33,679 bases of DNA, from positions 1 to 33,679 of IMG/VR virus record IMGVR_UViG_3300021091_000232. One strand, given 5' to 3'. The notes beneath the pieces were generated by a model. The model was not told the DNA's origin. It saw only the letters and a list, made by a program, of their open reading frames with translations, and searched no databases. The translations under genes were made by a program, and so were the position numbers. This document shows positions 1 to 33,679 of this stretch, one piece after another; the stretch's first letter is position 1, and every line of letters begins with the position of its first letter. This DNA comes from a virus.

Positions 1-33
1 AGTATACTTTATGCGTTCGTGTTTGACAGTTAA

Positions 34-58
34 GGGCGCCTTATGGGCGGGTCGGGGG
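34..58 (+). other. G-rich patch with four G-tracts (possible G-quadruplex)
   Basis: Four runs of three or more G lie at 34-36, 45-47, 49-51 and 54-58, with spacers of 8, 1 and 2 bases. A 5-bp hairpin, TAAGG (31-35), GCG loop, CCTTA (39-43), overlaps the first run. The surrounding DNA is strongly A-rich, so the patch stands out. The first spacer is one base longer than the common G-quadruplex search rule allows. Whether any structure forms is inference. Confidence 0.35.
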
Positions 59-211
59 TATGCGATATAAAAACGCAACACTACCCTAACCTACAAAGTG
101 TTACACAAGAGCTCAAAAAAAAACACGTGGACTTAAAAAAAATTCCCCCATCTCAAAAATTCAAAAAACCCCCCTATATAAAAACAAAAATAACTTTTAG
201 TTTCCCCTATA

Positions 212-382
212 ATGAAAAAAAATTCCGGAGATATTTTTGAGTCCATAGAGATCGATCCAATCAGTGGAGAATACTTTGTTCATATACCAGAGCAAATTAT
301 GAATGAACTCGAATGGTATGAAGATACAAAAATCAAGTTTTCGATTGAGAGTGGTGAAGTCATTCTATCAGAGGCAGATTGA
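212..382 (+). CDS. Small AbrB/MazE-like (swapped-hairpin) protein, 56 aa
   Basis: This 56-residue ORF begins MKKNSGDIFESIE and ends at TGA 380-382. Residues 21-53 follow the pattern of an AbrB/SpoVT/MazE swapped-hairpin domain: a strand, an IPEQIMNEL helix, a tryptophan and acidic turn, and a final IESGEVILS strand. Such domains bind DNA as dimers, in transition regulators and in antitoxins. No toxin gene is visible beside it. The protein is acidic, unlike many DNA-binding proteins, so a different use of the fold is possible. There is no clear ribosome-binding site before the ATG. The 3' end overlaps the -35 box of the promoter for the next gene, which would suit a local autoregulator. That role is inference; the domain match is by eye. 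Confidence 0.65.
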   Translation: MKKNSGDIFESIEIDPISGEYFVHIPEQIMNELEWYEDTKIKFSIESGEVILSEAD

Positions 383-407
383 CATCTTATAGATAATACT
401 GTATGAT
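379..407 (+). promoter_or_regulatory. Sigma70-type promoter upstream of the glycosyltransferase gene
   Basis: A perfect -35 box, TTGACA (379-384), is followed after exactly 17 bases by TATGAT (402-407), one base from the -10 consensus. The predicted transcript starts near 413-415, about 15 bases before the ATG at 430. Early genes of T4-like phages use host-type promoters, so this region may be read early or throughout infection. The -35 box overlaps the last codons of the upstream 56-aa gene. Confidence 0.7.
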
Positions 408-429
408 ATGAATGTAATTACTTTCTATT

Positions 430-1185
430 ATGGCTAAAGGATTTACCGTAAAAGCAAAAGCGCCCACTCCATCACAAGAACAAGAGTGGGACTATAATTT
501 GGCAAGAGAGATGGTCAAAGGAAAGTCCATCGTATTTTGTCTTCCAGGAAGAGGAGTTTCTTATACTTACTTAAAGAATTTTGTACAACTTTGTTTTGAT
601 CTTGTACAAAGTGGTGCGAGTATTCAAATTTCGCAAGACTATTCATCAATGGTCAACTTTGCACGATGCAAGTGTTTAGGTGCGAACGTGTTGCGTGGAC
701 CGAATCAGATTCCATGGGATGGCAAACTGAATTATAATTGGCAACTTTGGATTGATTCTGACATTGTTTTCAACACAGAAAAATTCTGGCAGTTGATTTT
801 AATGGATAAAGATATTGCAGCAGGTTGGTATGCTACTGAAGATGGTCATACAACCTCAGTGGCACATTGGTTGGACGAGGATGACTTCCGTGGAAACGGT
901 GGTGTGATGAATCATGAAACTGTTGAGAGCATCTCCAAGCGTCGCAAACCATTCACTGTAGACTATACAGGTTTTGGGTGGGTTTTGATTAAAAATGGTG
1001 TTTTTGAACACGAAGAGATGAAGTATCCATGGTTTGCTCCAAAGATGCAAATCTTTGAATCTGGTGAGGTTCAAGATATGTGTGGAGAAGATGTATCGTT
1101 CTGTTTGGATGCAAAGGAAGCAGGTTTTGAAATCTGGTGTGATCCTCGCATTCGCGTTGGTCACGAGAAGTCAAGAGTGATTTGA
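430..1185 (+). CDS. Glycosyltransferase, GT-A fold (family 2-like), 251 aa
   Basis: This is probably a cytoplasmic nucleotide-sugar-dependent glycosyltransferase. A DxD motif that would hold the metal and nucleotide sugar lies at residues 109-111, in WIDSDIVF. The C-terminal part has the acidic GED motif at 219-221, the FCLDA segment, and a conserved-type histidine at 245 in VGHEK. That pattern is usual in GT-A enzymes. There is no membrane segment. The ATG lies about 15 bases after the likely transcription start, and no strong ribosome-binding site is visible. The next gene starts one base after the stop. In T4-like marine phages such enzymes may decorate virion proteins or alter host surface glycans, but the substrate cannot be read from sequence. 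By eye its base composition is less AT-rich than the baseplate genes. Confidence 0.75.
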   Translation: MAKGFTVKAKAPTPSQEQEWDYNLAREMVKGKSIVFCLPGRGVSYTYLKNFVQLCFDLVQSGASIQISQDYSSMVNFARCKCLGANVLRGPNQIPWDGKLNYNWQLWIDSDIVFNTEKFWQLILMDKDIAAGWYATEDGHTTSVAHWLDEDDFRGNGGVMNHETVESISKRRKPFTVDYTGFGWVLIKNGVFEHEEMKYPWFAPKMQIFESGEVQDMCGEDVSFCLDAKEAGFEIWCDPRIRVGHEKSRVI

Positions 1186-30236: not shown

Positions 30237-30659
30237 ATGAAAAATAGTTATGAAAAATTAAATGAAACTCTGAATATTGAAAGTAGCATTATTGGGGTAG
30301 ATAAAGTCAAAGAAGAGTTGACAATATCCCCATTAAAATCTGATGATATAAAAAAAGATTATGAGTATACTCGTGCAAATTTGTATTCATTAATTGAAAA
30401 GGGGCAAGAGGCAATAAATGGAATAATGGAACTTGCTGGAGAGGGTGGTTCTCCAAGAGCATATGAGGTAGCTGGTCAACTTATTAAATCGGTTGGGGAT
30501 GTAACTGATAAACTTATAGATTTACAAAAGAAATTAAAAGATGTTGAAGAAGATTCTAATAAAACCACAAATAATGTGACTAATAATGCTGTTTTTGTGG
30601 GATCAACTTCTGAATTATCAAAACTACTCAAACAAGGTTTTCTAAATAATAAGGAGTAG
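30237..30659 (+). CDS. 16: Terminase small subunit gp16
   Basis: 140 aa, against 164 in T4. gp16 forms a ring that recognises DNA and stimulates the gp17 motor during packaging. The centre is a helical pair: DYEYTRANLYSLIEKGQEAI, then a GSPRAYEVAGQLIKS turn and helix, then DKLIDLQKKLKDVEE. This is the usual gp16 coiled-coil core. A polar Asn/Thr-rich stretch follows, and a C-terminal helix ends in LLKQGFLNNKE. It directly follows gp15. Unlike T4, gene 17 does not follow at once; two other genes lie between. Confidence 0.88.
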   Translation: MKNSYEKLNETLNIESSIIGVDKVKEELTISPLKSDDIKKDYEYTRANLYSLIEKGQEAINGIMELAGEGGSPRAYEVAGQLIKSVGDVTDKLIDLQKKLKDVEEDSNKTTNNVTNNAVFVGSTSELSKLLKQGFLNNKE

Positions 30660-30671
30660 TTCTTATTTCTA

Positions 30672-32822
30672 ATGAGTTGGTCTGACAAATATAAAAGATC
30701 AATAAACTGCGATAATCCTAGTGGATTTTCTCAGAAAGCTCATTGTGCTGCTCGTAAAAAAAGAGCAAAGGGTGAAGAGACTAAATCAAAATCACCTTTC
30801 AATGAAATGAACGATCCTCGTATTCCAAAGAAACCAGGACAACCAGATAAGTCTGATAAACACTCTGATCTCTATACAGATGAAGATCCAAAAGGAACAA
30901 TTCACGGATTGGGATTTAAGGATGCTGCAACTGCAAAACAAAGTGTCTCTAAAATAAAAAATTCTGGAAGATCTCATGCTCATAAAATTCAAGCAGCAAT
31001 TGCGATGGTACAAAGAGCAAGAGTGATGAGAAAGACTTCTGAAGCTGCTATTTTTAGAAAATTTATTAACTCAATGAAAAAGAAAACAGAAGAAATGAAC
31101 GAGGAAAAAAACAAAAATAGGTGCAAACCAGGAAACTATTATTGCTATACAGATAAAAAGTGTAAACCAATTCCTACTGGATATGTGATAGGTCGTGATG
31201 GTATGCTTGATAAGGAAGATGATTCTGAAGGTAATGGTTCTAATGGAAATGGAAATGGTTCTAGTATATCTGAAGAAGGTCTCCGTGACTGGTTTGGTAA
31301 ATCCAAATCAAAGGGTGGTAAGCGTGGTTGGGTAAATGTTGTTACGGGTGGAACTTGTGCAAGTGATGAACCTGGAGAAGGAGTTCCTAAATGCGTTTCT
31401 TCTTCCAAAAGAGCAAGTATGACTAAAGCAGAAAGATTGTCTGCTGCAAGAAGAAAGAAAAAAGCAGATCCAGGACAACAACAAAAGTCAGGTGCTGCAA
31501 GACCAACTTATGTTTCTACCGATTCCCCAAGAAAGAAAAGAAAAAAAATGAAAGAAGAATTTGATTTACAAGAAGCAAAAGATAAACCAGGTAAGGGTAG
31601 TGGTACAAAGGATGCCTGTTACCATAAGGTCAAGTCAAGATATAGCGTCTGGCCCTCTGCATATGCCTCTGGAGCATTAGTCAAGTGTCGTAGAGTTGGC
31701 GCGGCAAACTGGGGAAATAAGTCGGAATCAATAGATATAAAATCAAGAGATCCACTGTCGGAAGCAATTGGAATGATTCGCTATTGCCCTAAATGTGAAA
31801 AAAATGAAACCAGAGAAGAATGTAGATATGGCCCAAAGTTCTGGGATACATATTCACTCCCAATGAACTTAGGGAAAAAATACACACCAAATACACCACA
31901 TCCTGGTAATATGCCCGAAGGGTATGACCATGAGTATTCAATGGCTCGCTCTGAACTTTCAACAATCATTTCTGCTGCAAAAAGACTTCGTAAAAAAATG
32001 AAAGGTGAAGGTAACATTGAGGCATGGGTTCAATCAAAGATTACTAAAGCAGCAGATTATCTTGATACTGCGGCAGATTATGTTGATAGTGGTGAAATGA
32101 AAGAACAGGTTTCTGATACTAGCATTCCAGCAGATGAAAAAAATATTGAAAGATTCAGTGTTGCAATTAAATCTACAGGAAGAAGAAATTTACCAAATGA
32201 TCAGAAAATAAATGCTCTTAGACAAGCAGCACAAATATATCGTGGTGTGAGAGAAGAAGTTAGTTTTACAATTCCTAATGCAAAACCAACATACAAATAT
32301 CCAATTCTTCCACAAGAAAAAGGAGATGAAGTTCCTATCCAATTAATTAAAAAAATTAAAAAACCAGGAGTAAAATTACCTCTTGCTAAAAAAGAAACAA
32401 AAACACAAGTTGCTCACTTTGAACCAGAGGGTGAAGTTATTGATGAAAAGTGCTGGCCTGGTTATAAGAAAAAAGGTATGAAGACGATGTTTGGTAAGAG
32501 ATATCCAAATTGTGTTAAAGCAGAAGGATTCTCTAACTGGAGAGCAGAAATGGGTTTAAGTGAGGATTGGCAAAAAGTCAATCGTAAAGATAAAACTGAT
32601 GGATTAAGTCCTGCCGCTGTAAAAGCATATCGTCGTGAGAATCCAGGTTCAAAACTTAAAACTGCTGTAACTGAAAAAAATCCAACTGGTAAAAGAGCAT
32701 CTCGTCGCAAATCATTCTGTTCAAGAATGGGTGGAATGAAAAAAAAATTAACTTCAGCAAAAACTGCAAGAGACCCAGATTCAAGAATCAACAAAGCCCT
32801 CCGTCGTTGGAACTGTAATTAA
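30672..32822 (+). CDS. Basic, cysteine-patterned mosaic protein, 716 aa, between gp16 and gp17
   Basis: No enzyme motif is seen. The protein is a string of small, very basic modules. 1-33: FSQKAHCAARKKR. 78-135: GLGFKDAATAKQSVSKIKNS, ending in the FRKFINSMKKK helix. 151-164: Cys at 151, 158, 164. 203-260: GLRDWF with Cys 229 and 241. 316-339: a Cys pair. 372-384: CPKC plus C384, a possible half zinc ribbon. About 410-480: DHEYSMARSELSTI and WVQSKITKAADYL. 594-614: CWPGYKKKGMKT with C614. 632-716: DGLSPAAVKAYRRENPGSKL, ending RRWNCN. I recall each module as separate units in T4-like cyanophage proteins. Packing with, or binding, DNA in the head is plausible but inferred. A Gly/Asn linker (about 187-198) splits the modules. 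TAATG links it to the next gene. Confidence 0.75.
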   Translation: MSWSDKYKRSINCDNPSGFSQKAHCAARKKRAKGEETKSKSPFNEMNDPRIPKKPGQPDKSDKHSDLYTDEDPKGTIHGLGFKDAATAKQSVSKIKNSGRSHAHKIQAAIAMVQRARVMRKTSEAAIFRKFINSMKKKTEEMNEEKNKNRCKPGNYYCYTDKKCKPIPTGYVIGRDGMLDKEDDSEGNGSNGNGNGSSISEEGLRDWFGKSKSKGGKRGWVNVVTGGTCASDEPGEGVPKCVSSSKRASMTKAERLSAARRKKKADPGQQQKSGAARPTYVSTDSPRKKRKKMKEEFDLQEAKDKPGKGSGTKDACYHKVKSRYSVWPSAYASGALVKCRRVGAANWGNKSESIDIKSRDPLSEAIGMIRYCPKCEKNETREECRYGPKFWDTYSLPMNLGKKYTPNTPHPGNMPEGYDHEYSMARSELSTIISAAKRLRKKMKGEGNIEAWVQSKITKAADYLDTAADYVDSGEMKEQVSDTSIPADEKNIERFSVAIKSTGRRNLPNDQKINALRQAAQIYRGVREEVSFTIPNAKPTYKYPILPQEKGDEVPIQLIKKIKKPGVKLPLAKKETKTQVAHFEPEGEVIDEKCWPGYKKKGMKTMFGKRYPNCVKAEGFSNWRAEMGLSEDWQKVNRKDKTDGLSPAAVKAYRRENPGSKLKTAVTEKNPTGKRASRRKSFCSRMGGMKKKLTSAKTARDPDSRINKALRRWNCN

Positions 32823-33100
32823 TGAACGGACCTATTAAAATTTTAGGAAACTCTCAACAATTATCAGGAATAGGAACGACAGTTTCAGATATTAATGGAC
32901 TTGGAGCACAGTATGTTTTAATTCAACATACTGGATCTGGAAATCACTATGTAATTGAAAAAACTGGTGCTGGAGTCACTGTTGGAACAGTTTATATGCC
33001 GTCCGAATCATTTTTATTAATGAAAAAAGAAAGAACTAATATTATATCTGTCGATAGTGGAAATGATATTTACGCAACTTCTGTAGTGTATCAAGGATAA
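32822..33100 (+). CDS. Small beta-type protein, 92 aa
   Basis: The product begins MNGPIKILGNSQQLSGIGTT and looks like a compact beta barrel or sandwich. Strands include AQYVLIQHTGS, NHYVIEKT and ESFLLMKKER, with a final IYATSVVYQG. The pattern of a value followed by a carrier strand recalls small decoration or tail-accessory proteins in T4-like cyanophages. It carries the SGIGTTVSD motif also common in the giant protein. It overlaps the preceding gene by one base (TAATG) and ends 11 bases before gene 17. Function is not known. Confidence 0.65.
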   Translation: MNGPIKILGNSQQLSGIGTTVSDINGLGAQYVLIQHTGSGNHYVIEKTGAGVTVGTVYMPSESFLLMKKERTNIISVDSGNDIYATSVVYQG

Positions 33101-33111
33101 AAAAACATTTT

Positions 33112-33679
33112 ATGACTGATAATGTATATCTTGGCAATCCTCTGCTCAAAAAAGCCAACATTCAAATAGAATTCACCGAACATCAAGTTGTTGAGTTCTT
33201 AAAGTGTAAAGAAGATCCTGTATATTTTGCAAGAAATTATATCAAGATTGTATCTCTGGATCACGGTCTAGTTCCTTTTGAGTTGTATCCATTTCAAGAG
33301 AAATTGATTGATAATTTCCATAAGAACAGATTCAACATTTGTAAGATGCCCAGACAAACGGGTAAATCTACAACTGTTGTTTCTTATTTACTACATTATG
33401 CAGTATTCAACGATAATGTCAATATTGCCATTCTTGCAAACAAAGCATCAACTGCAAGAGATTTACTTGGAAGATTACAACTTGCTTATGAGAATCTACC
33501 AAGTTGGATGCAACAAGGTATCATATCGTGGAATAAAGGATCTCTGGAATTAGAAAATGGCTCCAAAATTTCATCTAACTCTACTTCGTCATCTGCTGTC
33601 CGAGGCGGATCCTATAATGTCATCTTTCTTGACGAGTTCGCTTTCATCCCGAATCACATTGCTGATGACTTCTTTGCCT
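33112..33679 (+). CDS. 17: Terminase large subunit gp17, N-terminal part (cut by window end)
   Basis: The first 189 residues of the packaging motor ATPase; the frame is open at the window end. An adenine-binding type motif (YPFQEKLID) lies at 59-67. The Walker A loop PRQTGKST is at 80-87, and Walker B, VIFLDEFAF, at 170-178 with Asp173 and catalytic Glu174. T4 gp17 has the same order. The C-terminal nuclease domain lies beyond the window, so activity cannot be judged. The start follows an AAGGA (33093-33097) at a long spacing of 14 bases. By eye this gene is less AT-rich than the baseplate block. Confidence 0.95.
   Translation, partial: MTDNVYLGNPLLKKANIQIEFTEHQVVEFLKCKEDPVYFARNYIKIVSLDHGLVPFELYPFQEKLIDNFHKNRFNICKMPRQTGKSTTVVSYLLHYAVFNDNVNIAILANKASTARDLLGRLQLAYENLPSWMQQGIISWNKGSLELENGSKISSNSTSSSAVRGGSYNVIFLDEFAFIPNHIADDFFA

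Follow-up and report, generated by a model that had tools for sequence, protein, structure and literature searches.

The 716-aa protein encoded between the two terminase genes of an uncultured T4-like cyanophage is probably a polyprotein precursor that the prohead protease processes into small internal head proteins. This reading draws on the shuffling of modules among homologues, a motif at the module borders, the type of the protease, a conserved site in the major capsid protein gp23 and the published presence of two relatives in virions. It also draws on gp20-gp21 and gp23 locations of module proteins, on free modules and on the targeting-like start of a relative of one module (M11). In the proposed mechanism, the precursor would join the prohead core, and the prohead protease gp21 (Peptidase_S77) would cut the linkers after hydrophobic-x-Glu. 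The released modules would be about 40-230 aa long and mostly basic, with a Cys pair in most of them. They would remain in the capsid beside the DNA, ejection with the DNA being probable as for the T4 internal proteins, and would be swapped among phages as cassettes. The cutting of the window protein, the retention of its pieces, their ejection, their contact with DNA and the function of each piece are what we infer here. Regarding function, we lean towards a mixture, in which the conserved M4, M5, M9 and M10 would have structural or DNA-associated roles and the rarer modules would be more effector-like.

The stretch of DNA analysed (the window) is a viral fragment from IMG/VR, 33,679 bases long, that belongs to a T4-like cyanophage. 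Its nearest isolate by DNA is S-SRM01, a freshwater phage of Synechococcus (78% identity over 77% of a 5.7-kb query). The gene is an uninterrupted open reading frame (Table 1). As an earlier sequence-only reading had stated, genes 16 and 17 are adjacent in T4; they even overlap, and the 716-aa gene is therefore an insertion relative to T4. The placement between terminases was borne out by Pfam matches on both flanks, while a second insert, a 92-aa ORF before gp17, had been missed. By eye, this ORF looks like the small S-SCSM1 ORF38/39, which are labelled as virion proteins. In S-SRM01 (L160:23569-27530), gene size suggests that GenBank has exchanged the labels of the tail sheath (1722 bp) and the large terminase subunit (2178 bp).

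Table 1. Features of the terminase interval, modules and predicted protease sites in the window
Feature	Position	Residues (aa)	Strand	Basis or remark
gp16-like small terminase, 5' flank	30237..30659		+	Pfam DNA_Packaging, E 2.2e-6
Modular protein of 716 aa with C-terminal DUF6321, T4-GC119-like family	30672..32822		+	ORF, PHROG/Pfam, homologues
M1	30672..30773	1-34	+	Cys13/25; recurs at other positions in homologues
M2	30804..31109	45-146	+	No Cys; recurs in homologues
M3	31110..31211	147-180	+	Cys151/158/164; recurs; 3 Cys in 16/16 copies counted
Predicted protease site ISE, before M4	31266..31274	199-201	+	Strict [LI]xE; junction statistics
M4	31281..31547	204-292	+	Cys229/241; alignment A2 (55 sequences), both Cys invariant
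Predicted protease site LQE, before M5	31566..31574	299-301	+	Strict [LI]xE
M5	31569..31727	300-352	+	Cys316/339; 365 phage records; 2 Cys in 38/38 copies
Predicted protease site LSE, before CPKC block	31755..31763	362-364	+	Strict [LI]xE
M6, CPKC block	31755..31847	362-392	+	Cys372/375/384; 3 Cys in 47/50 copies
M7	31848..32117	393-482	+	Recurs in homologues
M8, rare	32118..32267	483-532	+	Few homologues match
M9	32427..32531	586-620	+	Cys594/614; 27 phage records (33-aa query)
Predicted protease site IDE, before M9 core	32439..32447	590-592	+	Strict [LI]xE
M10 = DUF6321	32553..32819	628-716	+	Cys683/715; Pfam; alignment A1
Predicted protease site LSE, before M10	32556..32564	629-631	+	Strict [LI]xE
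Extra 92-aa ORF, phrog_18571, before gp17	32822-33100
gp17 large terminase, truncated at window end	33112..33679		+	Pfam Terminase_6N, E 2.7e-12

The protein contains 151 Lys and Arg against 87 Asp and Glu residues (net charge +64) and 16 Cys, and ten blocks, M1-M10, were delimited in it by eye. Every Cys position reported by the sequence-only reading was correct; the pairs 13/25 and 683/715 have to be added. DUF6321 (Pfam PF19846) covers residues 639-713 with 57.8 bits against a gathering score of 28.5 (E 1.8e-15). It was the single domain above the Pfam cutoff in this protein, in which neither enzymatic or effector domains of the polyvalent type nor a peptidase were found. DUF6321 occurs in 505 of the 50,697 phage records searched, mostly Synechococcus and Prochlorococcus cyanophages, and M4 was matched in 86 phage records. 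Additionally, the protein matches several PHROGs, among them 727, 3477 and 12753, none of which has a known function. When a single M4 peptide pattern was run, as a weak test, against 84,980 bacterial and archaeal species genomes, one match came up, on a contig filed as Rhodospirillaceae MAG that is probably phage, given the terminase-like genes on the same contig. Structure prediction yielded mean pLDDT values of 64.3 for M10 and 58.5 for M4 and no assignable fold, and the best match of a PDB search with M10 was no better than E 7.8.

Homologues were taken from two viral-contig scans as the best 80 of 595 and the best 80 of 585 matches, a choice biased towards close relatives. Among 118 distinct module-bearing complete ORFs, 15 without a visible terminase and two shorter than 300 aa were excluded. 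The remaining 101, which contain the window itself and a near-identical contig, have both terminases at the locus in 58 cases and one in 43; before the two short ORFs were removed, the classes of terminase visibility counted 59, 28 and 16. A pattern scan of these 101 terminase-interval proteins, drawn from the best 80 matches of each scan, distinguished 73 module orders, including M4-M5-M6-M7-M9, M4-M5-M9-M6-M7 and M6-M7-M4-M5. The mosaic noticed in the sequence-only reading is thus real and not a matter of chance, as its modules recur in varying orders in 101 distinct homologues. M4, M5, M9 and M10 show strong conservation and occur in nearly all proteins of the sample. Where M10 is found among the terminase-interval proteins it is always the final module, and in gp20-gp21 relatives it is internal. 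Many homologues carry at their N-terminus DUF5661, which has no counterpart in the window protein. In another homologue (L079:3670-6261), a large insertion within M5 gives a weak Hint-domain match (E 0.0032, under the curated cutoff) and is possibly an intein, to judge from this match.

Shuffling of this kind also fits a different emphasis on function, one that is compatible with cutting and that we regard as possible, if somewhat doubtful. The pieces may act chiefly once they have been ejected into the new host, where they would serve as anti-defence or take-over peptides, with DNA compaction secondary and shuffling the outcome of an arms race. The 73 architectures among the 101 sampled proteins are in line with it, as is the capture of extra domains. 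For example, a module protein right behind gp23 (L117:1345-3960) contains a complete DUF192 domain (E 4e-28); its N-terminus, MKSLNLFINE, is targeting-like. Furthermore, IPI of T4 is ejected and counteracts restriction (PMC9026906, in excerpt). The P-SSM4 gene lies near a cytidylyltransferase, and such enzymes are present in S-CREM2 and S-SCSM1 virions according to excerpts of the virion studies. However, typical arms-race genes are not conserved and near-universal in the way that M4, M5, M9 and M10 are, and the Pfam and PHROG scans gave no defence-related homology.

The case for cutting was examined at the module borders, where we counted H-x-E ([LIVMF]xE), a relaxed version of the T4 prohead-protease site L/I-x-E. 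The sequence-only reading had overlooked these linker sites. The module patterns were written once the contexts had been viewed. They gave [LIVMF]xE in 244 out of 290 unique contexts, each consisting of the 9 aa ahead of one of eight module cores. Shuffling predicts 93.2, and 0 of 500 shuffles reached as high a count. In an interior control (stretches off the borders) the motif stood at 1.05 times expectation. In the same 290 contexts, HE, HxxxE and HxxxxE were at or below expectation and HxxE reached 105 against 81.0. With 14 patterns and 10-aa contexts, H-x-E preceded modules in 333 of 412 distinct contexts (143.6 expected), and the strict [LI]xE in 136 of 412 (50.9 expected). These contexts are unique and yet kin by descent, and a count by ordered neighbour pair was used to address this kinship: most contexts carried H-x-E in 48 of 56 pairs (expected 16.2, maximum 24 in 300 shuffles), and about 45 of 56 still did so with one random context per pair. 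HE, HxD, ExH and KxE remained within the shuffle range in this pair-level test. Ten proteins outside the set (nine named phages and one MAG contig) gave H-x-E in 26 of 36 contexts, where 11.1 were expected and 1000 shuffles reached at most 19; this count is reported as run with a widened M5 pattern that shifted the context and hid some sites near M5. A count of [LI]xE over whole proteins, ignoring borders, was discarded as weak (hydrophobic residue at -2 of E in 0.27, against 0.14-0.25 at other offsets); the signal is located at the module borders.

The window protein has five strict [LI]xE sites, every one of them at the start of a module. If cut at these sites, the chain would yield pieces of 201, 100, 63, 228, 39 and 85 aa, whose net charges would be +15, +13, +7, +5, +6 and +18, respectively. 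The sequence-only reading described its modules as rich in Lys and Arg; strong basicity is not shared by all blocks, the piece 365-592 having only +5. In T4, gp21 cleaves after L/I-X-E, residues 4 and 7 of the signal are needed for targeting and residues 8 and 10 for processing (PMC9026906, in excerpt), and according to the published T4 work processing is blocked by Asp at P1. The gp21 of S-SRM01 is a Peptidase_S77, and in gp23 its SFLSE|A aligns with SFLTE|A of T4, whose 521-aa gp23 precursor exceeds the mature chains by 65 residues. The same gp23 position, located by eye, reads LAE|A in S-SCSM1 and LTE|A in S-CREM2. None of 327 module junctions has an aromatic residue at P4, so the junctions are like the processing half of the T4 signal and unlike the targeting half. 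Several observations count against cutting. The window protein starts with MSWSDKYKRS, without the capsid-targeting start MK-T/S-aromatic-x-x-F-I/L-x-E. P3 is V in 88 and M in 85 of the 333 H-x-E contexts, where T4 has L or I, the strict [LI]xE is confined to 136 of the 412 contexts, and H-x-E is less frequent before M6 (33/54), M7 (17/38) and M12 (5/17). In the 412-context test, HxxE (166 against 128.3 expected) and HxxxE (147 against 111.3) also rose mildly.

Some modules exist as separate proteins. In podovirus P-SCSP1o, DUF6321 forms an 84-aa protein immediately after the capsid gene, and in pelagiphage HTVC023P a 105-aa protein a few genes past the capsid gene gp40 (gp41 and gp42 lie between); neither contains [LI]xE. 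Adjoining the free DUF6321 gene of P-SCSP1o is a second small, very basic gene (L171:8201-8377; 58 aa, phrog_16028). Its product matches part of two DUF6321-containing PHROGs and may be another free module. Additionally, M11, which is absent from the window, matches a free 102-aa protein over a modest stretch (hhalign E 3.6e-7, 41 columns). The gene of this protein lies directly downstream of the polyprotein gene in many loci (32 distinct copies), and its product starts like MKSFKQFLSE, where T4 internal proteins II and III start with MKTYQEFIAE.

These results bear on whether the protein could be an internal head protein that is left whole, its linker H-x-E motifs being scaffold docking sites or a by-product of module joining. 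The broader P3 and the absence of the motif at some borders speak for such an uncut chain. Nevertheless, we consider it unlikely, since the enrichment is specific for the spacing and for E over D, the positions fit the T4 processing residues and not the aromatic targeting position 7 (PMC9026906, in excerpt), and single modules exist free.

Support for a place inside the head comes from published virion proteomics of S-CREM2. Table 3 of PMC10665884 gives 4 unique peptides (4.1% coverage) for gp137 and 7 (13.1% coverage) for gp160 in CsCl-purified virions, a result that does not distinguish head from tail. Of these relatives, gp137 has M10 at its C-terminus and gp160 the order M4-M9-M5. The low coverage of gp137 and its acidic net charge (-20) count against the cutting reading. 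The S-SCSM1 homologue, ORF29, has the GenBank label 'virion protein'; that these labels represent the mass-spectrometry set is unproved, with 48 labels counted by eye against 45 virion proteins in the excerpted paper. For P-SCSP1u, a related podovirus studied by cryo-EM, a term search of the published paper found no mass-spectrometry text on the DUF6321 protein. As a separate observation, the N-terminus of S-CREM2 gp160 (L173:4343-5236) resembles, by eye, a stretch of the phage's own major capsid protein (GATGFTGAAAPEGPVAGYDP and GADGFTGAAAPGGPNAGFDP, respectively). The cyanophage virion-associated NMN adenylyltransferase/cytidylyltransferase also has targeting-like starts, MKSFLQFLKEA (L164:38819-40048) and MKNFSSFLTEA (L173:609-1469), which would account for its virion presence.

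The cysteines leave room for another role, in which the modules would be zinc-binding or disulphide-bonded nucleic-acid-binding regulators in infected cells, with virion presence as carry-over. Cys numbers are even in M4 (2 in 55/55), M5 (2 in 38/38) and M10 (2 or 4 in 50/50), as such regulators might have, and on these counts would be compatible with disulphides or metal sites. Of 50 copies of the CPKC block, for which zinc binding had been proposed, 47 have 3 Cys and 42 lack His, and by this composition the block would on its own be an incomplete zinc site; Pfam scans of the window protein and relatives gave no zinc-finger profile above cutoff. A regulatory role is quite improbable in view of two separate module proteins in the purified virions (PMC10665884, Table 3), the head-cluster locations and the protease-type junctions. 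The suggestion in the sequence-only reading of a protein inside the head is supported by the virion mass spectrometry of the two S-CREM2 proteins, by module proteins at gp20-gp21 and beside gp23, and by protease-type sites at module borders.

The position of the gene varies across phages. A homologue lies between the terminases in 6 of the 8 cyanomyovirus isolates fetched (S-SRM01, S-SCSM1, S-B43, S-CREM2, S-SM1 and syn9). In P-SSM4, where it is near a cytidylyltransferase, and in S-SSM7 it lies away from the terminases, and thus not always in the head cluster, which counts against the cutting reading. In other lineages, module proteins are encoded between gp20 and gp21 (both genes seen in 6 loci, one in 4; Portal_T4 and Peptidase_S77 confirmed at locus L014) or directly behind gp23 (3 loci). 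The gp20-gp21 place is that of gp67 in T4, the next gene after 20. The module family therefore has no constant terminase linkage, its places including gp20-gp21, gp23, the cytidylyltransferase and the side of a podovirus capsid gene. The proposal of a terminase accessory or packaging factor, whose sole basis was the gp16-gp17 position found in many phages, is very improbable given these other places and the presence of module proteins in finished S-CREM2 virions (PMC10665884, Table 3).

The protein shares modules with a family known as T4-GC119, the label of the S-SM1 (SSM1_115), P-SSM4 and S-SSM7 homologues, since SSM1_115 holds the M4, M5, M9 and M10 patterns. In excerpt, PMC3037559 calls T4-GC119 a hypothetical protein and places it in what may be a mobile cassette. 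The GC119 genes of P-SSM4 and S-SSM7 are annotated 'similar to Synechococcus phage S-SM1 protein', which may mark S-SM1 virion proteins. In the open-access papers searched, DUF6321 was not mentioned. The literature on cyanophage internal head proteins, prohead proteases, polyproteins and modular proteins, covered by titles and the starts of abstracts outside subscription journals, gave no such proposal. What is new is thus the arrangement of T4-type internal head proteins, or prohead-protease substrates, as a shuffling polyprotein, the family itself being known as T4-GC119 and DUF6321.

More tentatively, T4-like cyanophages and their relatives could carry a combinatorial payload, in which any small Cys module behind a hydrophobic-x-Glu linker would be a protease-released head peptide delivered with the genome. 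If so, some of the ocean's commonest phages would have a general cassette with which injected proteins are loaded and evolve. If the polyprotein reading itself is right, many hypothetical marine phage proteins would become internal head cargo, and their module borders and predicted mature ends could be tested directly with existing virion mass-spectrometry data.

Among known systems, several comparisons can be drawn. Polyvalent proteins (PMC5512222, a text in which 'cyanophage' is absent) are likewise chains of several domains that have been predicted to travel with the DNA, and for which proteolytic release of domains has been proposed. Their domains are enzymatic, often with an embedded peptidase, whereas here the domains are small and of unknown function and the head protease is separate. 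The T4 core proteins gp67, gp68 and gp22 are multi-site gp21 substrates cut into internal peptides, as predicted for the present chain. No sequence relation to the modules was found, and the modules are conserved small domains common to different genes and phage types. A further likeness is to T4 IPI-IPIII and Alt, which are phage-encoded and carried in the head, as proposed for the modules. The three internal proteins of T4 are small, carry a net positive charge (IPI +2, IPII +4, IPIII +9) and are processed by gp21 after L/I-X-E (PMC9026906, in excerpt), and the window protein has gp21-type sites. In contrast to them, the window protein has Cys pairs and lacks an obvious N-terminal signal. 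In T4, each internal protein has a separate gene and its own N-terminal signal; here, many modules share one chain with sites between them. If the polyprotein reading is correct, this would be another way to pack injected proteins, one precursor giving rise to many, compared with one gene per protein in T4.
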